NCBI GenBank assembly: GCA_036245525.1
Contig: BTPG01000002.1
Location: forward strand, 166,925,501-166,989,500
From: Semisulcospira habei
Lineage: Eukaryota > Mollusca > Gastropoda > Semisulcospiridae
Length of the DNA: 64,000 nucleotides
Direction of reading: 5' to 3'
Shown here: piece by piece, positions 4,193 to 62,199 of the stretch
How the letters are laid out: each line of letters begins with the position of its first letter
How positions within the stretch are numbered: the first letter of the stretch is position 1
Notes under the pieces: generated by a model
What the model was told of the DNA's origin: nothing
The model's input: the letters and a program-made list of their open reading frames with translations, nothing else
The model's database searches: none
Made by a program: the position numbers and the translations under genes

Positions 4193-4671
4193 CTGGCCAT
4201 GGCGGAACAAGGAGCAAACCCACATCTCTCCAGCGAAGTGGAAACCACTGACAGCAGGTCGAAGCAGGTCGCCGCAAGTCACGACCGGGTAGGAAATGCA
4301 GAGTCGAAGTAAGAACTGTCACAGGTGTGAGCACTAGGAATCCCAGCCACGAACACAGCTCCAAGGTTCCAAAGTTTCCAGGCTCATACGAACTAACAGC
4401 CAAGGTCGTAAGTCGACCGGTCCAAGTAGCAAAACGCAGAGCTCGAAACAGACACAACCTATCTCAGTGCCAGCTAAGAACTGGGGTATGCCGGGTAATC
4501 TTGTACCGGATGGGAGTAAGGGGAGGCTATTCGGGTTGTGACATGGTCTATGGCGCCCCACTCCTGCAAACGATACCGTATACGGACACAACCAATTTTT
4601 GGGCTAAAATTATGCTAGCTAAGTGCCTTTCCTATATGTAATACCATCGGTAATGTGTTTTGAGAAAACAA

Positions 4672-5142
4672 ATTAAATTCTTGGAACCAAGAGACGAGAG
4701 AACCCTCTTGTTATTAGTACAGGTCAGCCTCAGTATATCATGGTACCTGGGAGCCATAAAGTCGGATGCATGATTTGCGACCGCATTATTGTTGTGATTA
4801 ATTCACATAGACATAATTATGAGGGGGAAAAAAAATTAGTAAGCAAAAGCTCCTTGGGTTAGCTGGCCTGCAAACGTTTTTATGTTTGCTCTAAATTCGC
4901 TGCAAACAAATTTCTCATTTAGGGACAATAAAGTATATCGTATAAAATAGTGTTATATCTGACTTCTGTTAGGAGATAGATCAACTGTTTTAGTTCAAGG
5001 GTGGTCCAAAGGTGCCATGCTATTCTGGCACCACCCTTGAACTATCAGTCACATTTATTCAAGCAGTGGGTGTATCAGAATGATAAGGGTTAAGAAGCAA
5101 CTTGGAGGAAAGAGAACTAGCAAGCAACAAATGAAAACACAC
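4672..5142. other. DDX27 intron 8, unique part
   Basis: AT-rich intron sequence between DIRS-E and exon 8. It holds one hairpin repeat at 4991-5044 (arms TAGTTCAAGGGTGGT and its complement). I see nothing else. Confidence 0.6.
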
Positions 5143-5316
5143 CAGCCGCCAGACAAATATCGATGTTGGAGAACTGAGCCAGCTGTCGCCCGACCTGATG
5201 CACCTGAACGGCCAACTCACGAGTAGGTACCAGGATGAGGACACGTGTCACTGAGCGCTGCACAGACCGATACAGCAGGCGCTCCAGAATTGGCAGCATA
5301 AAAGCCACAGTCTTCC
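5143..5316 (-). CDS. DDX27: DDX27 exon 8 (end of Walker A, motif Ia)
   Basis: The exon has 174 nt. It completes GKT of Walker A and continues VAFMLPILERLLYRSVQRS, then VTRVLILVPTRELAVQVHQ, and ends at IDICLAAG. The donor is GTGTGT. Exons for motifs Ib to VI are not in the window, so intron 8 continues left and contains DIRS-E. Confidence 0.92.
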
Positions 5317-29300: not shown

Positions 29301-32300
29301 GCAGGGGAAAGGGCACCGCGAGGGAGAATGAGACCGGGCATTGCAGCGGGAATGTGAGCAAGGGGACGAATGCCGGTCTGAGGAGAGAGAATCTGGTGAG
29401 AAGAGAGCAGACACAGAGTTCTCCGGGTGGAGACTAAGCGTGTTGTCGGCATCCTCCGGCATCGGCCTTCAGAGCGGGGAATGCAGGGGGGGGGGGGGGG
29501 GGGGGGCGCCGGGGGGCGTCTGATCGCAACTACAGATGCGCACAAGGCGGGGAAGGACGACGCTAGGGAAATCACGCCAGCCATAGCAGGTCCCTGAAGG
29601 GCGCTGGTCCCGGGAATCCGACCTGTGCTGTAGACAGGCCGGGTCCCCTCTGGTCTCTGGAATCCAACCTGTTCTGTAGACAGGCCAGGTCCCGCTGGTC
29701 TCGTGAATCTGAACTGTGCTGTAGACAGGCGGGGTCCCATTGGTCTCGTGAATCCAGGCTGTGTGCAGCGAGGGACCCGGAAGCCGCACGGCGCCGAGAG
29801 TTAGAGTGCGACCCCGAGGGGGTCCTGGATCCCGACAAGACACCAGAGAATCCTTCGGCCCAGTGAGAGCTGCGCCGAGCGCAGGGCGGCGCCCTTGCCG
29901 CTGCCTGCCAAGCATGCGGTAGGGAAGGAGGGTCCTGCGACGTCATCGGCCCAGTGGATCCGCGACCTGGGGAACGAGATACAGAGGCTGATGGAGAGCA
30001 TGCACGTCGACGCGAGCATTCCTGCGTCCGAGCTGACGGCCGGTGGTCCGGACAACCCGAGCGCCCCAGCACTGGGAGGAGTCCGTGCAGCCCAACGAAG
30101 AAGTCCAGCCCGGGGTGGGGGGGTGGGGGGGTGGGGGGGGGCAGGGCAGACGGGCGATTGCGCCGGTAGAACTCCCACAACTGAGACCATCATTGCTCCT
30201 TCTATGGAGCGCATCTCTCGCACGGCTGTGTGGAGGAGCAGCCCGAGCATGGGAGTCACAGTGTGTGGGAATCCGTCGGCCACTGAAGCCCTTTACACCG
30301 ACGACAAGTACGCAACTGTCCACTGTAACACACAGCGGAACACATGAGAGGCAACGGCATGTGGCCCGTATGAACGAAGGGCCATGTGAGCGAAAACTCA
30401 CGACCGGTTCTGCAGTGAAGTCTGGCTGTGTACGAACCAGCCGCTAACCGAGGAAATACCATGGCCGGTCAGGAGAACCTGGTCGACAGAGGCACGCCCC
30501 GAGACCTTACCTAGCCATGTCCAGAGCGACGGAAGGCAAGCAAGGACAAGGAGAGACACCAACCAAGGGAACCACAGGTAGTCCAAGGGAACCACGGGTA
30601 GTCCAAGGGAACCACAGGTAGTCCAAGGGAACCACAGGTAGTCCAAAGTGAAACACAACACACAAAGTAATCCAAAAGTATCCACAGGTATCCAAGGGCT
30701 TCAAAGGGTATCCAAAGGCTGAGCAAGGGTACAAAACACCTTACCACTACGAAGCTAAGTGTTCAACTGGCGTGGCAACACTGCACATGTGACTGGATAG
30801 GGAGGGGAGGGAGGGTACTCAGGGTTTCTCGTTAACGACTCCCTGGAGTCGCCTCCCTGATTGTGTATGTGTACACAACAGATTCTTAGGCTGAAATCAG
30901 TAAGCTAAGTGTACCTTCCATATAGTAATGCCAACGGTATGGATTTTGAGGAAACAAAATCACAGCAACAACTGTATTTCCTCTTAAAATGCCAATGCTT
31001 CAAGCACTTTTCCCCCATATCTTTCTGTTGATATGCACCATGGAGACTGATTGTTAAGTTTGAAACGTACGTGTGCAGTTACCAGTTGATTGTGTTTTTC
31101 CGTTTTCATCAGGTATAATGTGGTGACAAAATGAAGCTGCACCGACTTTGAAGTGCAAATGTTTACATGTTCAACATTTTACAAGGACAATGTACGTGTG
31201 CATTACATGTATTCTTTCCTAATCTTTTGTCTTAACTGTGACGATTTTACACACACGAAGGCTGCGAACTTGCACTGTAGGGGATATACACTAGCATACA
31301 CTAGTAGTAGTAGTGGCTAGGTTAGCACAGATTTACATTTCTGGGTGCTTCTGAGTCTATTTCTATCACCGCCGTGAGATGGCCTTATTTGCCTGCTCGG
31401 CATTAAACCCAAATAACTCACTAACTTGTAACTAACCATTTCTATCATACCTGCTGTGAGCGGTCACCTGCTGTTTACGGCCACTTTTGCTTGGCAACAG
31501 GGCCAGGGGTGACCGCTCACAGCAGGTTTTACTGTACTAGTCATCATGCTAATTAATTGCAAACACATACCAGAGGCCATATTTTCCTCTTGTTCTTCAT
31601 CAGAACTTGAGCTGTCTTCTTCTTCATCTTTCTCTATCTCTTCTTCCACTTTCTGAAAAAGCATACAACACATTATATATTTACTGTTATTGTCTATATG
31701 ATTTGCATTGTCGACACTCGGGCCCATCTAGTTTATTAAAAAAAATGACCTATAGAATTTTGACTCCGTGGGCCAATGTCCCAAGTGCTTGAATTCTGAA
31801 AATGAACACTGCACCTACCCCTCTCTTTTTCAGCTTGCGCATGTGACAGATTTTCTCATCGAGTGTTGAGTGGTGTTTTTTCTTTTTCGCCATTCGGAGA
31901 GCAATATCCACATCAAATGGTGACTCATCGTCAAACTACACCAAGACAAAAAATAAGGTGGTTAGTGAAATCAGGATAATTAAATAAAAATGCTCGTCAC
32001 TAAAAGGAAAAAAAAAACACACACACACAAACAAAACAACTTAATCTTGGACACAAAGAAAACCTCAAAAGTACTAAGGGTTCCAGAATCATAAATATAG
32101 GTCGGCCTCAGTATGACATGCTCCAGTATACAGATGCACAGTGGGTATGCCTTTGTTTGAGCAAAAGGTCTTTGGGTGGACATCAGCCTTAGCTGGCCAG
32201 CGCATGGCTGTGCACGAGCCAGCTGAGGCTCATGTCCACCCAAGGACCTTTTGCTTACTAAGGTGCTTTTCATCACAAGTCTATATTATGAAGTCGGCAC

Positions 32301-41200: not shown

Positions 41201-44200
41201 CTGTCATCGGCTGCGCTGGCTGCCCTGCTTGACTGGAGGTTCTTGGTCTCTACTCCGGTGTTCCACCGCCGAGCGACCCGCGACTTCCGCCTCCTTGGGA
41301 CCTTCCGCGGCACGGCGGAATTGTTCCAGCTGCCCTCGGACATGGGATAGCCACTCCTCTCGTCCCTGGTAAGTTTGTAGCTTATTCATAGACGCGTTAA
41401 GCCCGCTGACTCCTCCGGCGAGTCGCCAAGCTGGCTACGTGCCCCCCTCCCGTAAAAAGGAGCCCCGGGCACCGCGACCATGTCGCCTTAGTTCACGCGT
41501 CGGCCCCTCGGCCAAACCTCAAGCCCGCTGACTCCTCCGGCGAGTCGCCAAGCCGGCTACGTGCCCCCCTCCTTGAGCCCCGGGCACCGCGACCTTGGTC
41601 GCTAATTCGTTAAGCGTCGGCCTTTGGCCCTTCTTCTAAGCCCGCTGACTCCTCCGGCGAGTCGCCTAGCTGGCTACGTGCCCCCCTCCTTGAGCCCCGG
41701 GCACCGCGACCTTGTCGCCTGTTACATACAAAAAAAAAAAAAAAAAAAAAGAAGAAGTTGACGCTTGGCCTCGCGGCCCCTCTTGAGCCCGCTGACTCCT
41801 CCGGCGAGTCGCCAAGCCGGCTACGTGCCCCCCTCCATGAGCCCCGGGCACCGCGACCTTGTCGCTAATTAGCTTAAGCACCGGCCTTCGGCCCATCTAA
41901 GCCCGCTGACTCCTCCGGCGAGTCGCCTAGCTGGCTACGTGCCCCCCTCCTTGAGCCCCGGGCACCGCGACTTTGTCGCTAACTAGTCTACGCGTCGGCC
42001 TTCGGACCTGCTCAGCCCGCTGACTCCTCCGGCGAGTCACCAAGCCGGCTACGTGCCCCCCTCCTTGAGCCTCGGGCACTGCGACCTTGTCGCCTATTGT
42101 TGACGCGTTGGCCTCACGGCCCCTCCTAAGCCTGCGGACTCCTCCGGCGAATCGCCGAGCCGCTTTGTGCCCCCACCTTGAGCCCTGGGCACCGCGTCCT
42201 GGTCGCCAATTAGTTCGCGCGTCGGCCTTCGGCCCCAGCTTAAGTCCGTGTGCCCCCCTCCTTGAGCCGGGCACCGCGACCTTGTCTCCTTCGTTCTCAC
42301 TTCGGCACTTCGACCTCAGTCTCTGGGCCCGCTGACTCCTACGGCGAGTCGCCTAGCCGCTTGTGCCCCCTCCTTGAGCCCCGGGCACCGCGACCCTTAT
42401 CGCCTGTTGGTACCCTACGCGGCTTATGGCCCCTCCCTCCAACCCGCTGACTCCGCCGTCGAGTCCCCAGCCAGCTTCGTGCCCCCTACTTGAGCTTCGC
42501 GCACTGCGTCTGGATCGGCCTTCGTGTACCTCGGGACTTCGGGCCGTTTCCCCTGGCGCCTACGGCCTTCCACGTTTCACCGGTTCTCGTCTGTTCACCG
42601 AAGTGAAGCTACGTCGCGCTGTTAGCGCTTGGTTGGGTGCCCCTAGGGGTACACCCAGTGCAGTGGGGTTCGACTTCCTCGCCCTCGTCGCCTGGATAGT
42701 TGCGGCGCCCGACGGTCGTCGCCCGCCCCTCGACTCCCTCCGGGGTCCCTGTCGACCTTTGCCTGGTGCGGCGCTGTCGTTCTCCTCGGGACATCCTCTT
42801 CTTCCCCGCTCCCTGCACCCTTCGCCTCCGGCGTCTCCCCGACCCTCTCCGGGGGATGACTCGGCGTCCTGCGTTCGTCTCTGGCCTGCTGGCGTCTTAG
42901 CCTTCGGCTCCCCGGTTCGCTGGCCTCTCGCTCCCTTCGTGCTCGCGGCCTCCGGTGGTTCCGCCGGCGCCCGTGCTTGCGGCAACCCTTCCCAGCTCTA
43001 GCGGATCTTCCGCGTGGCTTCGAACCCTCCGCCCCTTGCCTTCCTTCGTTCGTGGCGGCCTGGCTCCTTCTTGACCATCTCCCCTGATGCGACGTCGCAG
43101 CTCTACCGTGCTCCTGTGGGTACCCGCGCCCGTCGGCCCTGCCTGGCAGTCTCTGAAGGAACCCTTCTAGGCCTGTGGGCCCAACGCCACCCTTGTGGAT
43201 TGGGTTCCCGCCCTTTCGGACCAAGGCCCTCGCCCTTCGCGCGCAGGTCTCCGCTCTTCTTTGGGAAGTTGCGATGCTGCTCATCGCTCGGCACGGCTCC
43301 CCCGCCTCGGACCCTTTGCGTCGCCTTCAGCCCTTGGTTGTCGCCGCCAGCCTGGACCTACCCGTTGCTTCTACGCGTCCCCATGCCTCCCGCCCCCGCC
43401 TTTGTCTTCGCTTGCCGTCGACGGGACCGTTTCCAGCTCGGCCTCCTTGGTGTGGTCTCCCCTCAGCCCTGGGTCCTTGCGTGGATCGTGGATGCCTTGG
43501 TTGCCCGGGACCTTCGATCTTCCGCCAGCCATTCTCCTCCTTGGTCGACCTGCTTCTGCGGTATCAGTCGGTGGTTCCTCCTCGTAGGGCAGGGATGCTC
43601 TCCTCCTCCGGTTGCTCGCCTGGTCGCCCTGGTCAGCGCCTATGGTCCGACCTCTCGCCCTCGCCGTCTGTTCACCGGGGAATGGTTTTGGTGACCGTCC
43701 GCAACTTGGTGCGTCTTCACGAGCCTCGGATCCAGTCCTTGCCGTTCTAGCCCGTGGGTGGCTGCGGGCGCGGCGGTCCCCTCCTGACTGCGGCTCCAGC
43801 TCCTCCTCCTGATGAGTGCAGCGGCTGATCTCCTTCCCTCGGTCTTCTGCACTCCGCCTCTGGAGGCTGTCCTCCGGCGATCTCTCTACCCTAGTGCCGA
43901 TCTCCCCTGTGCTGCGCCACATCGGCTTCGCTGGACGGACATTCTTAGCTCGGCTCCCGGATCCCCCCTGACCTCGCCACTGCCCCTCTCTCTCTGCGTG
44001 ATTGCCGGTCTCGACGGTTGGGGCGCTCTTCTTCTCCCGAATTCCGCTCGTCGGCCGGCCGCTGGCCCGCGAACCTGACTTCGCGGCACGTCAACCCGCT
44101 GGGACTGGTTGCAGTTGGCCGGCCCTCTGCGCTTGGCGATACGATCTTGGACACAGGACCTCCTCGTCCTTCCGACAACCCCTCTTCGTGGCTGGCCTTC

Positions 44201-47200
44201 AGACGCAGGAGGAACCCGCTCTCCCGACTTCTGCTTCCTCCTCTATCGCCCCTTCGCTGGTGCGCGGACAGCGACTTCTCCCTCCCAGACCGCCTCAGTC
44301 CAGGTCTCCTGTTCGTACTGGCAGACTACCTCTTGCGACGGAGGCAGCTTCTTCACACGGATTGCGCCCTACGCTGGGACATCCTTCGCTGGTTCTGCGC
44401 TCGTTGGGAGACTCCCCCCTTGTCCTCTTCGCCACGAAGTGGACCCTCCGGCTTCCCTCTTCATCTCCCCGTTCCCGACCTCTGGCCTGGGCAGTCGATG
44501 CGCTTGACCCCTTGGGACGGTCTGGTCCTTTACACCTACCCTCCGGCGGTCCTGGTCCTCAAGTCCTGCTCAGCCTCCGGGGATGCAACGCAGTCCTTCT
44601 CCGGGTAGCCGTTCTCCCGGACCGGATCGTGGACTTCCGACCTTCTCAGTCTCGCCACGGGCTCACCCTCCCTCTTCCCACCCCCCGCACGATGCTCGAG
44701 CAGCGCCGACAGCCGCTCTTCCACCCCTGCCGTGAGCGACTTCTCCTACACGCCTGGCGATTGTGCGGCAAGCTCTGTCTGCTGGAGGCTTCTCGAGTGC
44801 GACAGCGGACGCTATCGCTTCAGCCCGCAGTCCTACCAGACGTGTCTACGAGGGAAAGTGGCGTGCTTCGTGCCTGGTGCTCTGACCCCGCCGCCTCTCC
44901 ACCGTCGGCCTGACGTCTCCTCAGCTCGCGGACTTCTTCTCTGGCTCGTCCAAGACCAAGGTTGGCTCCCCTCTGGGGCAGCTGCTTCCCCTCTTGATCG
45001 CCGACGCCTACCGTCACCTCGGCCGTCCCGACCCAGCGCCTGCAAGGACCTGCCCGACCTTATGGCGCGTTTCGGCGTGCAGCGTCCGGTCTTCCTCTCC
45101 CTTGGCCCGCGCTGGGACCTCCCTGGTCCTCCCCTGACTGACTTCGGACCGTTAACACCGCTCCATCTGGCCCGCTTCGCTGACGTGACTCGGAGGCCTG
45201 CTTCCTGATGGCCCTCGCCACGGCGCCCCGCGTCAGCGAGCTCCACACGCCCTCGTCTCGCCCCACCGGCCTGCAGTTCCGAGTGGATGGCTCCGTGCAC
45301 CTACTCCCGGATCCTTCCTTCTCGCTCAGCCTAGGTCTCCCTTGACAGCGCCTCCGGCCCTCGCCGCTCGGCCGCTTACACGACCCGGTTCCTCGGGCAC
45401 TCCGCAGCAAGATCCGGGACAGGCACTTCGTATCTACCTGCTCCAAGTCCGTGCGGAGGGGACGGTCTCGTCCCTTGCCGCCGACCGCTGGCAGAACCGG
45501 CTTCTCGGCCCAAACGTTCTCCTCCTCGCTCCGCTGGGTATTCCGGTCCGCCTATCGCGACCTCTCCCCACAGGGAGCCGGGGCACTGAAGATCCGCGCC
45601 CATGGAACGCGCGCTAGGGCCGCATGTCTCGCCTTCGCCGCGCCAGTGTGGTTAAGGACACTGTGGCGGCGGTGGGGTGGCGGGACGGATCTACCATTGC
45701 CGCTTCTACTCCCGCGCCCTGACAGTCCAGCGCGACGACCTTACGCTGGTGGGCAACTTCTGCGGCGCAACACTCCCTCCAGGCGCCCTCGGCGCTTAGG
45801 CGGCACTTCGCTAAAATTGTCGGGAGTGGGTGATCAGGAGTGACGGGCCGTCTTCGTCCCTGAAGAGGTTTCTAAAAGGGATTGTGCGGCACCCTCCTCC
45901 TCTTTGCCATTCTTCCAGTTAGTCATGTCATCGGTAATGTGTTTTGAGGAAACAAATTAATTTTTCTCTAAAATGTATTTTTTCGAAAAATACTTACCGA
46001 TGACATGACTCGGAGGTCCCTCCCTCCTCCCCGCTTGCCGCTGGTAACTCCGTAGACAACTGGCTAAAGGAGACACCACCGGGCGCCTGACCGGATGGGC
46101 AGGGGAGGCTACTCTCGTCCCTGTTAGGGATCCCCGAAAGCTCTCTCGTCCCTATCAGGGATCCCCGAGAGCCTCCTGGGGGGACCCTTTGGGTCTTAGG
46201 CTAAAATTGGTAAGCAAGTAGACTATTTCCAGTTAGTCATGTCATCGGTAAGTATTTTTCGAAAAAATACATTTTAGAGAAAAATTAATTTTTGTCACTC
46301 TCCAATCCTCTGCTTCATATAGGAGAACTGCTTTTACGTTGGAGTTGAAAATCCGGACTTTGGTGTGTTGTGACAGCTCTCTGGAACTCCACACTTTTTT
46401 CAACTGGAGAAAGGCTGCTCTGGCTTTACCGATTCGTGCTCTGACATCTGCATCAGTGCCGCCTTTTTTGTCTATGATGCTCCCGAGATAGGAGATTCCC
46501 CCCCCCCCCCCCCCCCCCCACCGTGAAGGACTCCACCTCCTCCAATGGGGTGCCAGCAAGCAAGACTGGTTCTTCCCTGGTTGCGTTCAGCCTCATTGTC
46601 TTTGTTTTCTGTTTGTGGATGGTGAGGCCCACTTGGGACGAGATGTCAGCAAGCCTCGTGGTCTTGTCCTGCATTTGTTGATGAGTGTGGGACAGTAAAG
46701 CGAAGTCGTCTGCAAAATCGAGGTCATCAAGCTGTGTCCACAGTGTCCACTGTATTCCACTTCGTCTGTGCTCTGTGGTCCTCTTCATGACCCAGTCTAT
46801 GGCCAGTAGGAAGAGGAACGGAGACAGCAAACACCCCTGCCTGACACCGGTTCTGACCTGGAGCTCCCTTGTGAACTGCTCTTCGTGGATCACGCAACAT
46901 GTCATGCCATCGTAGCTGCTCTTGATCAGGCGGACGAGCTTTGTGGGTACACCGTAGTGTCGTAGGAGTTTTCACAGAGTCTCTCGGTCCACACTGTCAA
47001 ATGCTTTCTCGTAATCCACAAAGTTGACGTACAGCGGGGAGCTCCACTCCAGAGAATGTTCCACGATGATGCGGAGAGTGGCGATCTGGTCTGTACATGA
47101 CCTGGTCTTGAATCCTGCTTGCTGGTCTCTCGGCTGGGGGTCAACGGAGCTCTTCATTCTCTCCAGGATGATCCTGTTGAAGACCTTTCCTGGTACTGAC

Positions 47201-50200: not shown

Positions 50201-53200
50201 ATGGTCGCAACATGGAGTTCCTACCGGCGCGAGCGCCCGACCCCGGCCTGTGACCGCCCGTCTGCCATGGCGCCCTCCTCCCTCAGAGAAGTCACCAACC
50301 GCGCCCGCTCTGACTTGGGGGAACGTACGGCACGTGACTACGGCTTGCGTGGTAGGACTGCAACTTCCATGGTGACCACACCGTATGTGCCCGCTGACTC
50401 CTGCGGCAAGTCACTAAGCCGGCAGAGCGCCAGCCTCACTGAGCCTGACCTGCAGCGACCTCGTTGACCCGTACACCCTCCACTGGCGGTCCTGACGTTC
50501 CCCTCACGAGTAAGCCCACTGACTCCTACGGCGAGTCGTCTAGCCGGCAATGTGCCCCTTCAGATACATCGTGGCAGACCCGACAGACCTCTTGATGCTG
50601 GGAGCTCATGGCGCCCCCGCTCGCCGGAAGGCACCCCTGCGACGGTCCATGATCCGCTCTGCGACGACGGATGCAGCCCTCCACCCTCCTCGTCCTCTTC
50701 GTGCTTGACTTCGTCTCGTGCCTCTAGGTCACGTCCTCCCACCCACGTCGACTTGTATACTATCCACTGTCGGTCCTGACATTCCCCTCACGAGTAAGCC
50801 CGCTGACTCCTACAGCGAGTCGTCTAGCCAGCAGCGTGCCCACCTTACTGAGGCCCGGCCGAGGTGACCTTCGTCCCCTCGTCATAGACTTCTTGGCAGA
50901 TCCAACAGACCGCTCCACGCCAGGAGCCCCTGGCGCCCCACGGCTTTACCAGCCAGTGCTGGCGCCTAGCACTTAGTTCGCTTCCAGCTGCCAGCGAGAT
51001 AAGGCGCCGCGAGGTCACATTCCACTCTCGCCCGCTCATTCTATTTATATCGCTTGCTACTGTGGGGTACACGGCGTGACCGGCGCTCTGCCGCTATAAC
51101 AACTACCTACACATTTGTATTCATAACACATCTCTGCCTACAGTGACTGTTGTGGAAGCAACATCGTTCAAAAGTTGAAATTCTCACCTACACACCGATA
51201 CCAAATATGACAACATTACGACTTGCACTTGTGTAGCAGGTTATGGTGAAAATAATGAGAACGGGAATTTGTTGATGTACGATGTCGGTGTTTGTTGTGA
51301 AATTGACAAAGTTCCCACAGCCATAACACGAAGACGCTACTTTTCCCAACGAAACACACTTGCATGCATAAGGGTCAGCATGCCTACAGTAAGTATCACT
51401 TAGCGGATTTTGGATTCATGGTGGGGGACGAAAGCAGGAGGGTGGTTAATGAGGTCACTGACAGGTCGCGTGTTGTGCGGTACACGGCGTGACCGGCGCT
51501 CTGCCGCTATAACAACTACCTACTGGTTTGTATTCATAACACAAATCTGCCTGAAGTGACTGTTGTGGAAGCAACATCGTTCAAAAGTTGAAATTCTCAC
51601 CTACACACTGATACCAAACATGACAACATTACGACTTACACTTGTGTAGTAGGTTATGGTAAAAATAAAGGGAACGGGAATTTGTTGATGTCGGTGTTTG
51701 TTGTGAAATTGACAAAGTTCCCACAGCCATAACACAAAGACGCTACTTTTCCCAACGAAACACACTTGCGTGCATAAGGGTCAGCATGCCTACAGTAAGT
51801 ATCACTTACCGGATTTTGGATTCATAGTGGGGGACGGAAGCAGGAGGGTGGTTAATGAGGTCACTGACAGGTCGCGTGTTCTGGCATTTCTCGCCCGCAG
51901 CCGTCTCGGTACTCCACAGACTGCTATTGCCATCCCGAAATACGATCAGTCCATAACAGGTCACAATATTCAACAGTGTTTTTAAACATACCTTGAGGTT
52001 TAACACATTTTCTGACACACTAGACATAAGAACCGTTTTACGGGGAGTAGACGTCGGCGGAATAAAAACTTGTATACCACTATCACCTTCATTAGTGCTG
52101 TTATCAGTGTCAGTGTTATGAGTGTCACATTCCGCGGATCGAAACGATCGTTTCTTTCCATGCCGGGAACCCCGCTTCGCTGGTCATCCTCCTTTACCTA
52201 GCTGCATGAAGTGAACACACGCGACACATTCTTCAACGCTCGTATTTGGATGGAATATGGTCCAAATGTGTTGTGATGAGGCAATATCAGACGCCACATT
52301 TCGCGTTGTCTCCTCGGACACAGTGTTTCAGTCGAGTCTATCCGTTTCATCCGGCAATAGCAACTCCTACACATTGTTTTGGAGTGCATCATGTCTTTGT
52401 CTTCCTGGATATTAATTCCATAACACTTGTGGATTAAGTGTTCATAATTGATACAAAGAAATGACTTTTTATCCGTGTATCTCTTTTGTGATCTCTCGCC
52501 ACATATTCTGCACAATGCATTAACTCTCATTGCATGGAACACACCTGTGTGTACACAGACTGTACGCGTTTCATCAGACTCCATCATGATCAAAAGTTAA
52601 ATCAAAAGTACATTTACAAGGTTGACTGTTAGTGTTACACTATTTCCCAAGAAAGAAACGTGGCTATCTCCTCAATAGTATCCGTGTAACTAAGCCCTCT
52701 CTTTCCCCAATGCCGGGAGTGTACACCAAGTCGGATGTCTGGAACTTGTCTGTCGACACCTGTCAGTGACCTCATTAATTACCCTCCTGCTTCCGTCCCC
52801 CACCATGAACGCCTACCCGGCACCGGCCTCCACGTGGCGTGGGTGGGTAGTCCACTCGGTCCCTGACTGAGTGGGCTAGCAGACGGGTGCCATCTTTGTC
52901 CAGGATTAGGACTTGATGTCAGCAGATATGTTGTTCAGTCTTTTTCACTGGTCCGGTTTTTAAGGAGCTGTGCTTACCCAGGTCTTACCATGTTGGATTG
53001 GTCCTTAAAAATACGCGTGAGCTTTTGGTCCTTTGGATCCCAAGTGTTTGCCGTGCTTGGAGACCCGTGTCGGGGGAGAAGAGGATCCTGGTGGCTGAAA
53101 CACTCCACTTTGGCCTTGACTTCTGCCTAAACGGGAGGCTAGTCGTACCGGCCTAGTCAATCGGCTCTTGTCACGTCGAGCCCTATCCCCCTGTTGACAT

Positions 53201-56200
53201 GCGGGTTGTTATACGGAGCACCATGCTATAGCCTCTGATGCTGATTGGGTGCTTTACGCCAGTATTCCCCTGTATTCAACAGTGTGATAGAAGGCGGTGG
53301 CTCAAACGGTTCAATCGGGCTTACCCCCTTGAGTATATCTTTCGGGCAGTCTCCATTGTGCGTCGGCTGGAGACCCGCCGACAATTGCACTTTCCCTTGT
53401 TGGGCTCGGTGGCGGGCGGGGACCCCCGGGGGATGAATATCTATAATACTATAATATGGAAAATATCAAAAAACCAAAACTGGCACCAAAGCGGCACATA
53501 GCCACTGACATTGACCTTGAAAATGATAGCGACTCTGATTGTGGGGAAGCGACGCCTCAGGTTTCGGCCGTCTGGCCTCGCTTTCTCATTATCCACAGCA
53601 AAGTTAAAGAGAAGCCTGTTTCCAAGCTGCACCCTTTCCTGGTGGGGGAGACCCTCAGGAGCCGTGTTGGCAGGCCTGAGGCCCAGCGCCTCAGGTCTGG
53701 TGACTTGTTGGTAGAGTGCCGTACCCGGGCACACTCCAATGGGCTACTGAGGCTCTCCTCCATCGGAGACACTCCAGTGGAGGTTACTCCCCACAAAACA
53801 ATGAATTCCTCTAGAGGAGTGATTAAAGATCAAGCATTGGCCGAACTGTCTGAAGATGAACTTGTACGGAACCTTAAGTCACAGGGGGTGACCTACGTCA
53901 GGCGCTTCATTTCCAAACGAGGTGGTAGGGAGATCCGTCTCCCTACCATCATCCTGACGTTTGGCACCCCCACAGCTCCTACTACCATCTGGGGAGGTTA
54001 CTACTCCCTAAAAGTGAAAAAGTACGTCCCTCTCCCCCTTCGGTGCTTTAAGTGCCAAAAGTATGGCCATGGGCAGAAGACATGCCGCCAGGCAGAGGCC
54101 CTATGCGCCCGTTGCACTAAGCCCGGACACTGCTGAGTCCTGCACAGCCATCCCCCTGTGTGTGAATTGCCAGGGGGCGCATATGGCTTCGGACAAGAAG
54201 TGCCCTCGTTGGATCTCCGAGTGCAGGATTCAGCAGGTGCGTGTGGAGAAGGGGCTGTCCTTTGCGGACGCAAAAAAACTGGTTGACGGTCCTGGTGCAG
54301 CTGAGGCGGCGCCAAACTCAAATAACAACTTTGTGTATACTTTCAGTGCTGCGGTGGCAGGCAAGCGCCCCACCAAAGACTTCTCTTGTCAAACCCCAAC
54401 TTCTTGGTTGGGGGCGGAGCCTCGGATCCTCTCACCCCTGGAGAGTAATCCTCCTCCGGTGGTGACGAGGAGCCAGGGAACGCAGAGGGCGGACGCTACC
54501 GGTCCGGTGGCACCGCCTTCTGCTGCCCCTAAGCCTCAGCCCCCACCCAAACCTGCTAGTTTGTCAACACCAAAGGTTTCTGGCTCTGGTCAGCCTTCTA
54601 AGGCCGCTAACTCTAGCGGCAGGAACGCTGCCCAGGACCAGAAGTCAAAGAAATCTATGGGACCGCCGTGCGCACGGGCCCAGAAGGGGAACATTGATGG
54701 CCCCCTTCAAAACAAATATGCTGCGTTGGAGGAGCAGATGGAGGGAGTGGAAGTTGTCGATGCTGCGGCAGCTCCACCCCCTTCATCTCCTAAGAACCAG
54801 AGGAGGCCCGGGAGCCGGCCCCCCTCTGTTTCTCCGACTCCTTCCAAGGCAAAGGACAAAGGGGGGAAAAACTCCGCACCCCCAGATAAGACATAATCAT
54901 GGACTCTCTGCTTCAGTGGAATTGTCGTGGTTTTCAAGCTAACTTTGAGGAATTACGTCTTTTAGTCAAGTGCTATAACCCCTCAGTAATATCTCTTCAG
55001 GAGACTTACCTGAAGACTTCTGACCCTGTGTCCTTTAATGGTTTTAACGCTATACATAAAGGCTCTGATTCGGAGAGGCGCTCGGGTGGAGTGGCTCTTC
55101 TCATTAGTAGCCAAATTTTATGTAGCCCCGTTAGCATCGACACCTGTCTTCAGGCTGTCGCAGCTCGGGTTACCTTGAAGAAGACCATAACTATATGCAG
55201 TATTTACCTGCCACCATCCCTGCGGGTCTGTAGTAATGATTTTTTTAATTTAGTTGATCAACTGCCCCCTCCCTTTATTCTCATGGGGGATTTTAACGGT
55301 CACGCTCACCTTTGGGGTAGTGACCACTGTGATGGCAGAGGTCAGATGTTAGAAGATGTTTTTTCTCAACTTAATCTATGTGTCTTTAACGATGGTTCAC
55401 CTACATACTCTAACCCAGGTTCAGGATCTAGTTCTGTTCTAGACCTCACTGTGTGTGATCCTTCTCTCATGCTGGACTTTGACTGGAAGGTTCACGATGA
55501 CCTGTGTGGTAGTGACCACTTCCCAGTAGTCCTGTCATCGGTCAGCTGTGGGGAGGATCCGCCGGTGGGGCGCTGGAATCTTAAGAAAGCTAACTGGCCT
55601 CTGTTCGCCTCCCTCTGTCAGTCTCGTCTTACAGAGGAGGTGGTCATGACATCTGAAGAACCTATTTCTTCTTTTACTACTATTTTGTTGGGCGTAGCGG
55701 GTGAAACCATCCCTAAAACTTCCGCATCAGTCCCTCGAAAGCCGAGAGTACCATGGTTCAACGAAGAGTGCCGCAAGGCCCAAATAGCGCGCAAATCTGC
55801 TCAGCGACGTGCTTTCCGTAATCCGTCGCAAGTGAATATTTTAACCTTTAAAAGACAGAGGGCGAAAGCCCGTTACATTTTTAAACGTGAACGCCGTGCT
55901 TCCTGGAGACGCTTCGTCTCATCTTTAACTTCTCGGACTCCGTCCCAGAAAGTATGGAAGGCTGTTCGGAGAATTAGGGGCAGAGGTGGCTCGGCTTCTG
56001 TTGGCCATCTTAGAGATGGTGTCAGTTTGGTTACAGATAAAAAAGCTGTGGCCAATTTGCTTGCCTCCACCATTGCCCATAATTCTTCAACGGAGCATTA
56101 TTCACCTTTCTTCCAGATAGAGAAGGAGAAACGAGAGTCTCGTATTTGTGATTTTGAGTCCGATAACTCAGAAGACTATAATGTCCCGTTTACATTATCA

Positions 56201-59200
56201 GAATTGCAGCAAGCTTTGCAGAAATGTAATGACTCTGCTGCTGGCCTAGATACCGTCCACTATCAATTCCTAACGCATCTGCCTGAGAGGTCACTCCTTG
56301 TACTTCTCAAGGCCTTTAACCATATCTGGAGAACTGGTCATTTTCCGCCGTCTTGGCGCCAAGCTGTGGTTGTACCGATCCCCAAGCCGGGTAAGGATCC
56401 TTCCGACCCGGGCAACTACCGGCCTATCGCTTTGACATCATGTTTATGTAAAACTATGGAGCGCCTGGTCAACGCCCGCCTGGTGTGGCATCTTGAGTCA
56501 CAGGGTCTCCTCACAGACCTCCAGTGCGGTTTCCGGCGCTTCCGTAGTACAACTGACCATTTAGTCCGCTTTGAATCGTTTATTCGAGATTCTTTTGTCA
56601 ACAAGCAGCATGTCTATGCAATTTTTTTCGATCTTGAGAAGGCGTATGACACTACCTGGAAGTATGGCATAATGTCTGACTTGTTGGACATGGGTTTTAA
56701 AGGGCACCTGCCCGTTTTTATTCACAATTTTTTGACTAACCGGTCGTTCCATGTCCGTGTGGGCTCCACCCTCTCCAACTCCTTTGAACAGGAGATGGGT
56801 GTCCCACAGGGCAGCATTCTATCTCCTGTTTTATTTAGTATTAAAATTAATAACATTGTAAAGGCCGTCAAGGATGATTCTGAATGCTCTTTGTTTGTTG
56901 ACGACTTTGCTTTGTGCGCACGTGGTCGAGGACTTGCGTCCCTTGAGAGGCGCTTGCAGCTGTGCGTTGATCGCATCCAGCGGTGGGTGTCTCTCAATGG
57001 ATTCAAGTTCTCGCCCTCCAAGACTGTTTGTGTGCTCCCCACCCGGGTCTGCCCTGGGGGACTTGGGTGGGGTTAGGTATTTTTTAGTTCCCAGGGTCAC
57101 CCTGGTCAGCCCCACAGGGTGGGTTTTTCTCTCTATTCTGGGGCATGTGTTTCTGTCTACCCGAGGTCCATTCATCTGTATTTGCCTTTTTAAAACTCTC
57201 CCTACTGTCTGCACTGCCTGTAGCTCTTGATGTTGGATGTGTGTTGCTAAATGGTCTTAGCTTTATTTATGCCCCATGTTGTAGGTTTATTTAATGTATT
57301 TGACCGGCTGGCGACATACATTCAATTTTCTGTTTAGTTTTTTTTTCACAAGCAGTGCAGGCACGTCCTGAGAAAGCCTTGTTGCTGTCGGGACGTTAAG
57401 CAATGTACAATCAATCAATCAATGTTTGTGTGCATTTTACTAACCAGACGAAATTTTTTCCAGAACCTAGCCTGAGCATTGCTGGAGTGCCAATTAAGGT
57501 GGCCGAGGAGGCAAAGTTTCTGGGGGTCATTTTTGACAAAAGACTTACCTTCCGCAACCATATTAATTACCTTAGAACCTCTTGTCAGAAGGCTCTCGAC
57601 ATTCTTCGTGTCGTCGGTCGTACTGACTGGGGTGCGGACCGTACTGTCTTACTTCGTCTGTACCGGGCCCTTGTTCGGTCCAAACTGGATTACGGCTCTG
57701 TGGTGTATGGCTCAGCTTCCAAGTCTGTGCTACAGCGTCTGAACACAATTCACCATCAGGGTCTGCGGATATGTCTTGGGGCCTTCAGGACGTCTCCAGT
57801 TCCTAGTCTGTATGCTGAGGCAGGGGAGCCTTCTCTCAAGCTCCGCCGCATCCGCCTCATGCTCAGCTACGTTCTGAAACTGAAGGCCCATCCAGACAAT
57901 CCTGCCTATGATTGTGTTTTTAAACCATCGTTTGCAGAGATTTACGATACCCATCCGGGAGCTGTCCGTCCACTTTCTTTCCGTGTCCGACCTCATCTGC
58001 AGGCGGCCGGATTGGACCTGGACAGAGTTTCGGAATCCCTGCAACACATCACTCCACCTTGGCTCTTACCAGTTCCTGACATCTTGCTGGACTTGACTGC
58101 CCACAAGAAAGACTCTACTCCACCAGCCATATACCAACAGAGCCTCAATGAACTGCTTTCAATTTTTCCTGGCTATTGTCGCATCTATACCGATGGGTCA
58201 AAGTCTGAGGATGGGAGAGTGGCTGCGGCCGCAGTATCCTCTCGCCATCCTAGACGCCCATTTAAGCACCGCCTCCCAGACCACTCATCTGTATTTAGTG
58301 CGGAACTGCAGGCGGTTCTGCTGGCACTCAAGCATGCTTATCGATCTAGAGAAAGGAACTTCCTGATTCTGTCTGACTCTCTTTCTGCCCTGCAGGCCCT
58401 TCAGGGCACGGGAAATGACCACCCACTGCTGGTGCAGATCAGAGAGCTCCACGCGGACTTGATGAAGGAATATTATGATATCATTTTTATTTGGGTGCCA
58501 GGGCATGTGGGCATCGAAGGCAACAGGATCGCAGATTCTGCTGCCAACGATGCCCGCAATGACCCTGTCCCTGACACACAGACTGTTTATAGTGATTTTA
58601 GACATGTGGCTAGTGCGTACATAGCCCGTGAGTGGCAGTCCGAGTGGGACAAAGAGGAAGCTAACAAGCTGCATGAAGCCCTTCCTAAGTTGTCCGACGG
58701 TCTACCTTATCGCTGCGGCAGCCGCCGTGAGGAGACTGTCCTGGCTCGGCTCCACATCGGCCACACGTATGTTACGCACTCTTATTTACTTAAACAGGAG
58801 GAGCGTCCATGGTGTTATGCCTGCGACGAGCAGTACTCTGTTCAACACTTTTTGTTGTCTTGTGCTGATCTAATCGACACAAGGTATAAACATTTCACAG
58901 CAGACTCCTTGAAGGTTTTGTTCCGGGATGTGCCCCCGGACAAGATCTTCAGTTTTCTGAGAGAGTGCCATATTTTTAATAAGATTTGAGCGTTTATAGA
59001 TTATGATGTTTCTATTATTTTGACCTTTTTGAGAGTCTTCCGACGTTTTCTTTAAAGACCTGTGCGACATTTTAGCCTGACATATTTTTAAGGTATATTT
59101 ACATCATGTCTTAAGACCTTTCTTTTAGTCTGGCTGACCAGATTTTTACCCTTCCCGCCGTGAGATGGCCTTAGTTGCCTGCTCGGCGTTAAACCCAAAT

Positions 59201-62199
59201 AACTAACTAACCCCCACCATGAACCCAAAATCCATTAAGTGATACGTACTGTAGGCATGCTAACCCTTATGCATGCAAGTGTGTTTCACTGGGAAAAGTA
59301 GCGTATTTGTGTTATGGCTGTGGGAACTTTGTCAATTTCACAATAAATTCTCGTTTTCGTACATCAACAAATTCCCGTTCTCTTTATTTTCACCATGACC
59401 TGCTACACAAGTGCAAGTCGTAATGTTGTCATGTTTGGTATCAGTGTGTAGGTGAGAATTTCAACATTTGAACGATGTTGCTTTCACAACAGTCACTTTA
59501 GGCAGAGATGTGTTATGAATACAAATGTGTAGGTAGTTGTTATAGCGGCAGAGAGCCGGTCACGCCGTGTACCGCTCAGTAGTGCGATATAAATAGAATG
59601 AGCGGGCGAGAGTGGAACTCGCGGCAGCCTTATCTCTCTGGCAGCTGGAAGTGAACTAAGTGTCGGCTATGGTAAAGGCGTGGCCCCCACTCTTCGGAAG
59701 GCGCCCCCGCTACGGCCCGTGATGCGCAGACGTAGCCCTCGGCACAGAACAAGTACATCTCAGCCCCGTCCTTTACATGGAGACAGCCGTCAGTCTGGCT
59801 GGTCCTCTCCACGTCCCCGTGCACCCCGCCTCCTGACGGTTCCTGCGCTTCACCTCCGACGGCGTGGTCTACCAGTTTCGGGCCCTTCCGTTCGGCCTCA
59901 ACCTCAGCCCTTGGGTCTTCACCTGCATCATGAACGCCATCGTTGCCAAGGCCAGTCAGTCCGACCTCGACCTATTTGGACGACCTCCTTCTGAGGAACC
60001 CACTCTAGTGTCAGCCAGGGATGCGCTTCTCCTGTTGTTGATGCGGCTGGGCTTCCTGGTCAACGCAGACAAGTCGGACCTCACACCTTCCCGCCGGTTT
60101 GTACTCCTCGGCATGGACTTTGCGACCGACCTCAACCGGGTGAGACTTCCGGAGCTTCAGATACAGACGCTGGCCGCCCTGGCCCGCCGGGTGGCCCAAG
60201 AGGATGCATTGCAGTTCCCGCAAGAGTTGGCTCCAGCTCCTCAGCCTGATGAATGCAGCGGTGAACCTCCTGCCACTTGGTTGTCTTCCTCCCGGCCTCT
60301 CCAGCTGCATCTCCTTCTCCTCGGGCGTCCGTCCCCCGGTACCTGTTCCTCAGATGCTTCATCCCCATCTGCAATGCTGGACGGACCCTTCATGGCTCGC
60401 TTCATGATTTCCTCTCGCCTCACCCCCACCCCAGCTTTTGCTCTGCGTGGATGCAAGTTTTGCCGGCGTGGTGTGCACTCGTGCTCCCGAGTTTTCTCAT
60501 GACGGCAGGCCGTTGGCCTCCGGACCTAGCGGCCAGACACTTCATCTGGTTGGAACTGAATGCAGTTTGGCAAGTGCTCCTCGCATGGGAGCCCCGCCTC
60601 CGTTCCCAGGAGCTCCTCGTCCTCTCGGACTACTCCACGGTCGTTTCCTACATCCAGAAGCAGGGCGGATCCCCTGTATACTCCTCTAATAGGTCCTGCG
60701 TTGGGGCGAAGACCGAGGCATCTTCCTCCGTGCACGACACACCCCTAGACACCTGAACGTCCTGGCCGACTTCCTCTCGCGGCACGACCAGCTTCTCCAC
60801 ACGGAATGGACCCTGCGACCGCACATCTTTCGGATGATCTGCGCTCTCTGGGAGACGCCCATGGTCAACCTCTTCGCCACGAGGTGGAATCGCCCACTCC
60901 CCCTCTTTGTCTCCCCGATTCCAGACCCCCTGGCATGGGCTGTCAACGCACGTTCCATTCCGTGGGACGGTCTCATCGCTTACACGTATCCCCCGACGAC
61001 GTTAGTCCCCAAAGTCCTGCTCAAGCTCTAGGGATGCAATGCGGTGCTGTTACTGGTGGCCCCGTTCTCTTGGAACAGATCCTGGACCACCGACCTGCTC
61101 AGTCTTGCCATGGGACCCCCCCCCCCCCCCACCTGCTGCTCCCCACCCCGAGCGTGTTGCTCAAACAGCCTTGCCAGTGGCTGTTCCACCCGTGCCCAGA
61201 GCGACTTCTCCTGCACGTCTGGAGATTGTGTGGCAAGCCCTCGCCGCAAGCGGCTTCTCAAGTGCAGCAGTGAACACGATCGCTACAGCCTGCAGACCCT
61301 CGACCAGACGAGTCTACGAGGGAAAGTGGCGAGTACTACGGTCGTGTGAAGACCAACAGCTCTCTCCCACTGATCTGACTACCCCTCACACAACAGGTTC
61401 TTAGGCTAAATTGCTTAAGCTAGTAACACTTCCATAAAGTAATGTCATCGGTAAGTATTTTTCGAAAAAATACATTAGAGAAAAATTCATATTTCAAGGT
61501 TGGTGTCAAAATAGCTTGGCACCTAGAGGAGCCAAGCTATTCTGACACCAACCTTGAAATATCATGGTCGATGCACATCCTGTCTTAGACTTTCAGGACT
61601 TTATGGGTGAAATAAATCGGGAATGAACACCTCACATCTCATTTTCATGTTAAAACTGCTAATAGTTTAGTCAGGGTTTTTTACACCTAGTTAATAGAAG
61701 ATGAATTTCTTATAAAGCTGCTCCTTTGCAGCTGTTGACCATCTTTTTCTTACAAAGCTGCTCCGTTGCAGCTGTGTTCATGGGTTGTCCATTCCCAGGA
61801 TCACCCAACAGGGAGAGAGAATTGCATGTATGGCTGCTTTTAATTACCCTACACTGTTGGTGGTCACACTTAAAATATTTTATCCAGAGAATGCAAGTTG
61901 TTATTCTGGGAGCTTGCCGTAACTGAAGACAATCCCCAAATAGCAATGCCATAACAACAGTTACTGAAGCCTTAGAGGTTTTGGCTAGTCAGCTGACAAA
62001 TAGCAGCCTCTGTCAAAGGCAACCTCCATTTCTGTCTCTTGGCCGGCAAGTGCATAGGAGTGATTCACACCAGTTGTTTGATCTTTCAGGTGATGAAGAA
62101 AATATTGACAAGTTGAACCGTCGTCTGGTCAAAGTGACGAAACAGCACAACGATGACTGCAAACAACTGCTGAAACTGATGGGCGTACCATATGTTGAG
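35143..62199 (+). CDS. FEN1: FEN1 flap endonuclease 1, exons 1-5, 3' part outside window
   Basis: This is the structure-specific 5' nuclease that removes flaps during Okazaki-fragment maturation and long-patch base excision repair, working with PCNA in the nucleus. Five exons join in one open frame with consistent phases. The frame opens [20 protein letters not shown], and the [19 protein letters not shown] block contains a catalytic Asp (Asp34 equivalent). [19 protein letters not shown] follows, and [14 protein letters not shown] carries the Asp86 equivalent. The arch helices end [14 protein letters not shown]...LMGVPY. The Glu158/160 region, the rest of the nuclease core and the PIP box lie beyond base 64000. 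Intron 4 is 24.8 kb because of nested transposons. I am very sure of the identity. Confidence 0.95.
35393..35495 (+). CDS. FEN1: FEN1 exon 2
   Basis: The exon has 103 nt with acceptor TTTCAG and donor GTAACT. It codes [20 protein letters not shown] and then [13 protein letters not shown]. The Asp in AIDAS is a metal ligand of the nuclease. Confidence 0.95.
35618..36053. mobile_element. hAT-like MITE in FEN1 intron 2
   Basis: The block begins GGGGTTCAAAATAC and ends GTTATTTCGAACCCTG, an inverted repeat of the CAGGGTTCGAAAT type. GGGGCCC and GGGCCC segments lie inside each end. It is 436 bp with no ORF. A clear 8-bp duplication is not visible. Confidence 0.65.
36101..36207. repeat. AGCTTGGCGCC-family hairpin in FEN1 intron 2
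   Basis: The arms start ATGGATTGACCATGATAATC and end in its imperfect complement, with GGTAGTGCCAGAT and AGCTTGGCGCC inside. It is related to hairpins at 12813, 13565, 14607, 36548 and 61491. Confidence 0.8.
36397..36499 (+). CDS. FEN1: FEN1 exon 3
   Basis: The exon has 103 nt with acceptor ATTTCAG and donor GTATGC. It codes [20 protein letters not shown] and then [15 protein letters not shown]. The Asp in VFDGKPP is a metal ligand. Confidence 0.95.
36548..36652. repeat. AGCTTGGCGCC-family hairpin in FEN1 intron 3
   Basis: The arms start AGATGGATCGACCATGATAA and end in its imperfect complement. It is flanked by the same CTGCAGCA/TGCAACT context as other copies. Confidence 0.8.
37073..37160. 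repeat. 88-bp spacerless palindrome in FEN1 intron 3
   Basis: AACCCTTTGCGTGTCGGTAG begins a palindrome centred on CCTGCAGG at 37116/37117, with no spacer. Only one of 44 pairs mismatches (G at 37094 against T at 37139), which would still pair as G:U in RNA. It ends 59 bp before FEN1 exon 4. Confidence 0.92.
37220..37283 (+). CDS. FEN1: FEN1 exon 4
   Basis: The exon has 64 nt with acceptor TGACAG and donor GTATAC. It codes the charged helix [20 protein letters not shown], typical of the segment just before the helical arch. Confidence 0.92.
38237..38244 (+). other. DIRS-A gag start codon exon end (ATGGCAAG before GTAAGG)
   Basis: ATG GCA AG precedes a donor GTAAGG at 38245. The matching acceptor is GTTGCAG at 49534-49540, giving Met-Ala-Arg-Asn-Ser-Thr-Cys in frame with the gag Cys-rich region. 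RTE-2 now sits inside this leader intron. Confidence 0.65.
38678..38690. repeat. Left target-site duplication of RTE-2
   Basis: TTCGGCTGCCTCC here matches TTCGGCTTCCTCC at 49188-49200 with one difference. Confidence 0.88.
39018..39874 (-). mobile_element. Solo LTR-like insertion in RTE-2
   Basis: An 857-bp block interrupts RTE-2, with RTE-1 as the empty-site reference. It begins TGTTGCG and ends CGTAACA, the TG...CA ends of an LTR. CTG is repeated on both sides (39015-39017 and 39875-39877). On the minus strand an ATTGGTTG box near 39430 precedes TATAAAAG near 39388, which suggests a minus-strand LTR promoter. There is no coding sequence. Strand is an inference. Confidence 0.7.
40379..41200 (+). 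repeat. Leader exon-intron unit repeated three times in DIRS-B3
   Basis: Units of about 272 bp start at 40379, 40654 and 40925. Each has CCATG, an AG/GT donor (introns 40389-40572, 40666-40845, 40939-41118) and a TGCAG acceptor. The first two start codons are intact (ATG GAC AG, ATG GAA AG); the third is followed by TAA. The same triplication lies in DIRS-B1 (about 10600-11600). Confidence 0.8.
41395..42470 (+). repeat. Tandem array of about 115-bp units in DIRS-B3
   Basis: About nine degenerate units share CCCGCTGACTCCTCCGGCGA, CTACGTGCCCCCCTCC and GGGCACCGCGACC. An A tract of about 20 bases followed by GAAGAAGTTG lies inside one unit near 41731-41760. The array takes the place of gag. Frames through it are broken. 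Confidence 0.85.
43100..45840 (+). pseudogene. DIRS-B3 pol remnants (RT, RNase H, tyrosine recombinase)
   Basis: Homology to DIRS-E and DIRS-D pol is visible but scattered over frames. The YLDD region reads LVDLLLRYQ near 43550. [18 protein letters not shown] and LFATKW...PLAWAVDAL lie near 44420-44560. Recombinase box [20 protein letters not shown] is near 45205, box [16 protein letters not shown] near 45595-45640, and [17 protein letters not shown] near 45705. Catalytic recombinase residues R, H, R and Y are all present but not in one frame. Confidence 0.78.
45913..46010. repeat. Internal complementary region of DIRS-B3
   Basis: 45913-45955 is the complement of the left end 39945-39987 (43 bp). 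45956-46010 is the complement of the right end 46235-46289 (55 bp). They are joined exactly at the predicted circle junction. Confidence 0.9.
46290..48914 (-). pseudogene. RTE-2 endonuclease-RT, multiply broken
   Basis: 48914-48222 keeps the endonuclease ([32 protein letters not shown]), then a frameshift; 48331-48050 continues with ASDHHLL. 46905-46453 carries RT motifs [14 protein letters not shown] and FADDFALLS. The 31-bp insertion at 46493-46523, several small deletions and DIRS-B3 break the rest. It is clearly older than RTE-1, or less constrained. Confidence 0.85.
49541..50467 (+). pseudogene. DIRS-A gag, duplicated N-terminal part
   Basis: After the acceptor at 49540 the frame reads [20 protein letters not shown] and then [20 protein letters not shown], matching DIRS gag N-termini. 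A second, shifted copy near 50140-50250 reads [20 protein letters not shown]. Units with CCGCTCACTCCTACGG and related cores at about 49862, 50390, 50516 and 50802 resemble the DIRS-B array. All frames are broken. Confidence 0.6.
50939..51466. repeat. Left terminal inverted repeat of the RAG1-N-like transposon
   Basis: About 528 bp, matched in reverse by 59682-59225 plus 52810-52756, the right arm split by the LINE. Shared stretches include CTCGCCCGCTCATTCTATTT, TACACGGCGTGACCGG and TCACTGACAGGT. Confidence 0.82.
51479..51882. repeat. Direct duplication of the subterminal region
   Basis: This block repeats 51066-51474 in the same orientation with about 95% identity by eye and a 7-bp deletion. 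It lies between the left inverted repeat and the RAG1-N-like ORF. Confidence 0.82.
51978..52197 (-). pseudogene. Downstream remnant of the RAG1-N-like ORF
   Basis: In the shifted frame, after a TGA, the sequence reads [20 protein letters not shown] and then a Ser/Thr-rich tail to VSENVLNLK before GTATGT, a possible splice donor. No further exon is recognised before the subterminal repeat. Confidence 0.4.
52198..52593 (-). pseudogene. RAG1 N-terminal-like zinc-binding protein fragment
   Basis: The frame opens at 52593 and has 131 residues. C28-x2-C31 ([11 protein letters not shown]) is followed by a 38-residue helical stretch ([15 protein letters not shown]) and H70-x4-C75-x2-C78 ([17 protein letters not shown]). 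The order CRIC...H-x4-C-x2-C with a hydrophobic GI(N/D) helix between is that of the RAG1 N-terminal zinc region. About residue 90 the frame shifts. A second frame continues [20 protein letters not shown], then [10 protein letters not shown], like the next Cys pair and basic patch of RAG1. No RAG1 core or RAG2 is present. A ZAD-type zinc finger is the main alternative but lacks the His. Confidence 0.62.
52797..52810. repeat. Left target-site duplication of the I-group LINE
   Basis: CCCCCACCATGAAC is repeated exactly at 59211-59224. Confidence 0.92.
53456..54896 (+). pseudogene. LINE ORF1, gag-like with CCHC knuckles, one frameshift
   Basis: The start ATG is at 53456. The N-terminal half is charged, followed by an RRM-like stretch ([14 protein letters not shown]). 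The knuckles are [14 protein letters not shown] (CX2CX4HX4C), CARCTKPGH-(TAES)C split by the frameshift near 54132, and [15 protein letters not shown] (CX2CX3HX6C). The tail is Pro/Ser-rich to the stop at 54896. The frameshift looks like a loss of two bases. Confidence 0.88.
54899..58989 (+). pseudogene. LINE ORF2: endonuclease, RT, RNase H; open except for one insert
   Basis: Apart from the insert (with its duplicated target 398 bp), the frame is open for about 1,230 residues. The endonuclease has [31 protein letters not shown] and GSDHFPVVL. The RT has [50 protein letters not shown] and FVDDFAL. The RNase H has [33 protein letters not shown] and [10 protein letters not shown], giving the D, E, D and D residues. 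A C-terminal Cys/His stretch [18 protein letters not shown] follows. The insert at 57036-57422 breaks it just after the FVDD thumb region. Confidence 0.93.
57036..57422 (+). mobile_element. 387-bp 5'-truncated LINE 3'-end fragment in LINE ORF2
   Basis: TGTTTGTGTGC at 57025-57035 is repeated at 57423-57433, an 11-bp target duplication. The insert ends GGGACGTTAAGCAATGTAC followed by an AATC tail, a typical simple-repeat 3' end of a non-LTR element. It has no ORF of its own. The source family is not in this window. Confidence 0.85.
59690..60756 (+). pseudogene. DIRS-A RT and RNase H remnants
   Basis: The RT core reads [20 protein letters not shown] and [17 protein letters not shown]. The YLDDLLLR box (near 59968-59995) is one frame away. 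[20 protein letters not shown] follows. RNase H pieces [13 protein letters not shown] (near 60435) and [19 protein letters not shown] (near 60610-60670) lie in separate frames. Part of the RT N-terminus is deleted. Confidence 0.75.
60834..61404 (+). pseudogene. DIRS-A post-RNase H segment and recombinase N-terminus
   Basis: 60834-61031 reads [39 protein letters not shown] and [15 protein letters not shown], the segment that follows RNase H in DIRS elements. 61039-61404 reads [20 protein letters not shown] and [17 protein letters not shown], the recombinase N-terminus. The sequence then runs directly into the 3' terminal repeat, so the catalytic recombinase domain is gone. Confidence 0.72.
61491..62089. 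repeat. FEN1 intron 4 right end, with half of a host hairpin
   Basis: 61491-61570 is most of an AGCTTGGC-type hairpin whose first bases are left of DIRS-A (37505-37517). Around 61700-61770 a short stretch (AAAGCTGCTCC, TTGCAGCTGT) is duplicated. No gene is seen before exon 5. Confidence 0.7.
62090..62199 (+). CDS. FEN1: FEN1 exon 5
   Basis: The exon has 110 nt with acceptor CTTTCAG and donor GTGAGG. It codes [20 protein letters not shown] and then [16 protein letters not shown], the helical arch region that threads the flap. It joins exon 4 in phase across the 24.8-kb intron. Confidence 0.94.

Follow-up and report, generated by a model that had tools for sequence, protein, structure and literature searches.

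RAG1 is the enzyme shuffling antibody genes. A transposon composed entirely of sequence resembling the N-terminal part of this protein, N-RAG-TP, is known from Aplysia californica (Panchin & Moroz 2008, as cited in PMC8355894; N-RAG-TP is also cited in PMC2996935 and PMC13337447). Chapaev transposases carry a RAG1-N-terminal-like zinc finger termed the 'Chapa domain', a truncated version of which occurs in TransibSU (RAG1L), with RING and Chapa being present in no other known transposable elements according to this source (PMC4411706). Hallmarks of Chapaev elements are target-site duplications (TSDs) of generally 3 to 4 bp and 5'-CAC/GTG-3' termini (PMC4079192), and transposition by Transib and RAG1/2 yields a 5-bp TSD (PMC8355894). 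For the RAG1 N-terminus, one published scenario proposes the fusion of N-RAG-TP with Transib (PMC8355894) and another a shared Chapa-RING-core ancestor (PMC4411706).

We analysed a stretch of 64,000 nucleotides of Semisulcospira habei, referred to as the window, which contains a terminal inverted repeat (TIR) transposon with an exon for a RAG1-N-terminus-like zinc domain (Table 1). We consider it likely that this element is a cut-and-paste transposon of the Chapaev type (CMC group), non-autonomous and recently amplified, which retains only exon 1 of a transposase gene. A preliminary description of the window had recognised a zinc-binding frame within a TIR element and this observation is real, the exon being found in all 40 genomic copies scored and RAG1 being the top match of the window-family protein in Pfam as well as in the PDB.

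Table 1. Coordinates of the transposon, its coding exon and the nested LINE in the window.
Feature	Position	Strand	Remarks
Whole TIR transposon	50939..59682	.	flanked by GCCC/GCCC; full-length copies L002-L008 end alike
Left 4-bp TSD, GCCC	50935..50938	.	
Right 4-bp TSD, GCCC	59683..59686	.	
TIR (3' TIR of the coding strand)	50939..51466	+	528 bp; starts CACGGCTTTACCA
Extra tandem copy of the ~410-bp TIR unit	51474..51883	+	unit number differs among copies
Other TIR (5' TIR of the coding strand), inner part	52758..52810	-	
Other TIR, outer part past the nested LINE	59211..59682	-	final letters GGTAAAGGCGTG
Coding exon, RAG1-N-terminus-like (Chapa) zinc domain	51992..52587	-	ATG at 52587, end at 51992; intact copies have 199 codons, the window copy has a one-base deletion
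Putative 5' splice donor GTATGT at the exon end	51986..51991	-	codon phase 0; by sequence only
Nested LINE retrotransposon, ~6.4 kb, in the right TIR	52797..59224	+	14-bp duplication CCCCCACCATGAAC at both bounds (52797-52810 and 59211-59224)

Without the nested LINE the window element comprises 2,330 bp, equal to copy L002, and its TIRs have 528 and 511 bp with an identity of 92% over 499 columns. The inverted repeats of 0.5 kb proposed in the preliminary description are therefore confirmed for the element freed of the LINE, but only 52 nt of inverted repeat are directly visible in the window because the LINE splits the right TIR. The 4-bp duplication described at the bounds of the element is present as GCCC on either side. 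The ends of the element read CACGCCTTTACCA / CACGGCTTTACCA, corresponding to 5'-CAC ... GTG-3' termini; the patterns used in the end search started with CAC, so that the patterns taken alone are not independent evidence, and the duplications nevertheless adjoin exactly these ends.

The nested LINE is younger than the TIR element. As judged by eye, its first frame shows a zinc-knuckle-like motif and its later frames are endonuclease-, reverse transcriptase (RT)- and RNase H-like, and a Pfam scan of its first two frames returned no family at E≤0.01. Inspection by eye further suggests that the RT region is broken around 57071-57430, where a short insertion-like sequence with (AATC)n at its end is located. 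Elsewhere in the window long frames are located at 474-9875, 17726-19882, 25372-30347, 42378-45208 and 59837-60502, many of them repeated and distributed over both strands, with DIRS-like pieces recognised by eye. The whole window contains 41 frames of at least 180 aa, among which DIRS-like and LINE-like ones are common by the same visual assignment.

The coding region had previously been placed at 51978..52593; the frame is indeed present there, located on the minus strand, and in the window copy it is frameshifted. This copy has 616 bases compared to 617 in the 12 next-best copies and carries a one-base deletion relative to copy L002, resulting in a break of the frame near codon 89. In copy L002 the exon has a length of 597 and ends at a donor-like site in codon phase 0. 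This site, CTCAAG followed by GTATGT (CTCAAGGTATGT), occurs without mismatch in all 40 copies, and past it the frame continues into the TIR. As the frame ends at a donor-like site, it has the appearance of a first exon belonging to a longer gene. Numbered from the ATG, the protein shows a C-x2-C motif (C26/C29) and an H-x4-C-x2-C motif (H68/C73/C76), and the residues C28, C31, H70, C75 and C78 named in the preliminary description are correct if two residues preceding the ATG are counted. We identified a third CxxC motif, C121/C124, which was absent from that description; it is preceded by W109, and GKGG and a basic stretch come after it.

Our data support the exon protein being related to the RAG1 N-terminus, as judged from profile comparisons. 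For the protein of the window family, P0001, the best Pfam family is RAG1_imp_bd with E=0.0021 and 18.1 bits, which is below the gathering cut-off of 23.3, and zf-AD (PF07776) is not reported at E≤10. A search of 5.8 billion proteins yielded three relatives, i.e. P0002 (75% identical), P0003 (40%) and P0004 (48%); for P0002 and P0003 individually neither zf-AD nor RAG1_imp_bd is reported at E≤10. In the PDB, RAG1 (21wb_A) is on top for P0001 as a single sequence (E=0.02), and a four-sequence profile matches RAG1 21wb_A with E=1e-5 and the full-length RAG1 entries 6oem_A and 9jpu_A with 1.3e-3, while the next match, an unrelated one, has E=2 and no ZAD-named protein is among the matches listed at E≤10. 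The homology to the RAG1 N-terminus put forward in the preliminary description is hence borne out, with RAG1 ranking first in Pfam for P0001 and the four-sequence profile having RAG1 as its first PDB match, and the better match to ZAD, which it had named as an objection, was not found for the window family.

Across the four family members C73, C76, W109, C121 and C124 are invariant, and the first CxxC motif is retained in all three members long enough to include that position. H68 is present in P0002 and is no hallmark of the protein family because it is replaced by tyrosine in P0004 and falls into a gap in P0003, which speaks against the motif as given in the preliminary description. AlphaFold predictions based on alignments of 3 and 4 sequences were poor, with mean pLDDT values of only 34.3 and 34.7, and the RAG1 reading therefore rests on the profile evidence. 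Among viral contigs, a search for relatives gave 39 pattern matches, none of which was confirmed. P0004 is a Chapa-like protein matching both RAG1_imp_bd, with 23.5 bits over residues 8-140 and thus above the cut-off of 23.3 bits, and zf-AD, with a slightly higher score of 26.7 bits over residues 18-76, which comprise the first two CxxC motifs, and below the cut-off of that family. This double match makes it possible that the ZAD and the RAG1 N-terminal zinc domains are homologous; if P0004 is such a bridge, ZAD, Chapa and the RAG1 N-terminus would constitute one zinc-domain family. A literature search found no paper linking ZAD and RAG1, which does not prove the absence of such a link in print.

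Searching the genome with the exon region resulted in 1,236 first-look candidates, of which 40 were scored, none of them having less than 99% identity with the query; as these are best matches only, the number of near-identical copies is at least 40. All 597 coding positions are matched in each of these 40 copies (595-597 bases each), and the 199-codon frame is intact in the aligned exon of 35; identity and intactness are biased upward because these are the best-scoring copies. An absence of the ORF from other copies, the further objection considered in the preliminary description, is contradicted by these numbers. Both ends were found for 29 of the 40 copies, spanning 1,918-3,295 bp, and all 29 are flanked by a perfect 4-bp TSD for which a base preference is not clear. 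Of the remaining 11, one is the window copy; in the other ten, ends are truncated or mutated, additional inserts are present, or an end lies outside the retrieved stretch, and no transposase-sized extra element sequence was found in these ten, L018 and L040 being followed to the end of the retrieved stretch. A transposase of its own was seen in none of the 40 copies (L018 and L040 in part), and the two-ended copies have no room for one, nor for a RAG1 core and a RAG2-like gene. The RAG1-core profile PF12940 had no match genome-wide, but as it matched in 0 of 14 control genomes too, this negative result carries no weight. Regarding the assembly, eight giant contigs hold 1.96 of 1.98 Gb and the ninth has 0.8 Mb, suggesting n=8; TTAGGG occurs 39 times in the last 3 kb of contig C6, with no array at the other 15 of the 16 giant-contig ends, one of which begins with N.

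The exons of the scored copies differ by 30 distinct substitutions, i.e. 21 non-synonymous, six synonymous and three nonsense ones. This split lies close to the 69/28/3% predicted under neutrality, in line with a passenger role; CpG transitions account for 12 of the 30 substitutions and the neutral expectation ignores CpG effects. Differences from copy L002 amount to a mean of 1.1 per copy and to 6 in the window copy. Based on the few differences and the near-neutral substitutions, the scored copies are young and their exons appear free to drift once inserted.

Comparison with the Chapaev hallmarks shows three of these marks being present, i.e. the 4-bp TSD, the CAC...GTG ends and a Chapa-like domain, the latter placed by RAG1 profiles with Chapaev represented by published descriptions, whereas an own DDE transposase with the CMC residues is missing; we therefore provisionally place the element as a Chapaev-type non-autonomous transposon. 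As the frame resembles an exon 1, we interpret the element as having arisen by internal deletion and as being mobilised in trans. In this model an autonomous parent would have contained the exon as the first one of its transposase gene, the remainder of which was deleted, and a full transposase supplied in trans would recognise the TIRs and mobilise the deletion derivative. The leftover zinc domain would then travel along as a passenger, with a regulatory or partner-binding role at most. As a side effect, insertion of the element into a gene could lead to its exon being spliced to a host exon via GTATGT. The donor-like site makes the exon-1 hypothesis testable and, judged from this site, elements of the N-RAG-TP kind may have originated from Chapaev by deletion; this, if true, would weaken the case for a separate 'N-terminus transposon'. 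Our literature search found no paper on Chapaev transposons in chiton, which does not prove absence in print.

Alternatively, the element could be a self-sufficient N-RAG-TP type, in which the small zinc protein is the intended product, e.g. a TIR-binding factor or repressor, and the transposase is provided by a different element. The preservation of the 199-codon frame in 35 of 40 copies agrees with this, as do the 26 invariant columns which P0002, P0003 and P0004 have in common with the window protein and the composition of the Aplysia N-RAG-TP, made entirely of RAG1-N-terminal-like sequence (PMC8355894). However, the conserved frame stops at a strong donor-like site and then continues into the TIR, the substitutions between copies are near neutral and the young age of the copies, with a mean of 1.1 differences from L002, could by itself explain the intact frames, so that we regard this explanation as unlikely. 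Still somewhat less probable, in our view, is that the unit acts as a mobile exon, its phase-0 donor being able to fuse the zinc domain to host genes or genes of other transposons, with the protein family also bridging the RAG1 N-terminus and ZAD; a mobile exon of this kind would show in action the event which has been suggested for the N-terminus of RAG1.

The two further alternatives invoke a different origin of the domain or of the transposon, and both are disfavoured. An unrelated TIR transposon having captured a zinc-finger exon of the ZAD (zf-AD) type would account for P0004 scoring higher with zf-AD than with RAG1_imp_bd (26.7 versus 23.5 bits) and for tyrosine replacing the RAG1-like H68 in this protein; we judge it very unlikely, as P0001 matches RAG1 with zf-AD unreported at E≤10, the zf-AD match of P0004 covers residues 18-76 and stays below its cut-off while the RAG1 match covers residues 8-140 and exceeds its own, no protein named as ZAD is among the PDB hits listed at E≤10, and termini and TSD fit Chapaev. 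Least probable of all is a non-autonomous derivative of RAGL/ProtoRAG or Transib. CAC-type termini are common to the RAGL/ProtoRAG/Transib group too, which counts for such an origin, but the termini CACGCCT/CACGGCT do not resemble an RSS heptamer. The N-terminal zinc motifs of RAG1L proteins are likewise of the same kind (PMC7204232). A RAGL/ProtoRAG or Transib origin is opposed by the TSD, which has 4 bp in all 29 two-ended copies compared to 5 bp for Transib and RAG1/2 transposition (PMC8355894), and by the RAG1 core (PF12940) being unmatched in the genome, although the 14 controls are empty too.

Comparison with the known systems suggests the N-RAG-TP-type anatomy belonging with Chapaev rather than with Transib/RAGL, as indicated by the 4-bp TSD and the CAC/GTG ends. 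The occurrence in a new lineage assumed in the preliminary description is not supported. The direct bearing on the origin of the RAG1 N-terminus claimed there could not be upheld either, since these same features point to a Chapaev-type element, for which the domain is already published (PMC4411706); the Chapaev placement itself bears on both published scenarios for the RAG1 N-terminus. With Chapaev (CMC) the element shares the 4-bp TSD, the CAC...GTG ends and the RAG1-N-terminus-like zinc (Chapa) domain, and it differs by having neither a visible transposase core nor a RING frame and by the tandem ~410-bp units in one of its TIRs. RAG1L of the RAGL transposons carries RAG1-type N-terminal zinc motifs as well (PMC7204232), whereas our element is without a RAG1 core or a visible RAG2L and has a TSD of 4 bp instead of 5 bp. 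The comparison with N-RAG-TP of Aplysia californica drawn at the outset holds by description, both being transposons in which the coding sequence resembles the N-terminal part of RAG1 alone. Transposons of this RAG1-N-terminus-only kind are already known, and the element is thus not a new class but a clear and useful new example, young and present in multiple copies, which combines the anatomy of N-RAG-TP with ends and a TSD of the Chapaev type.
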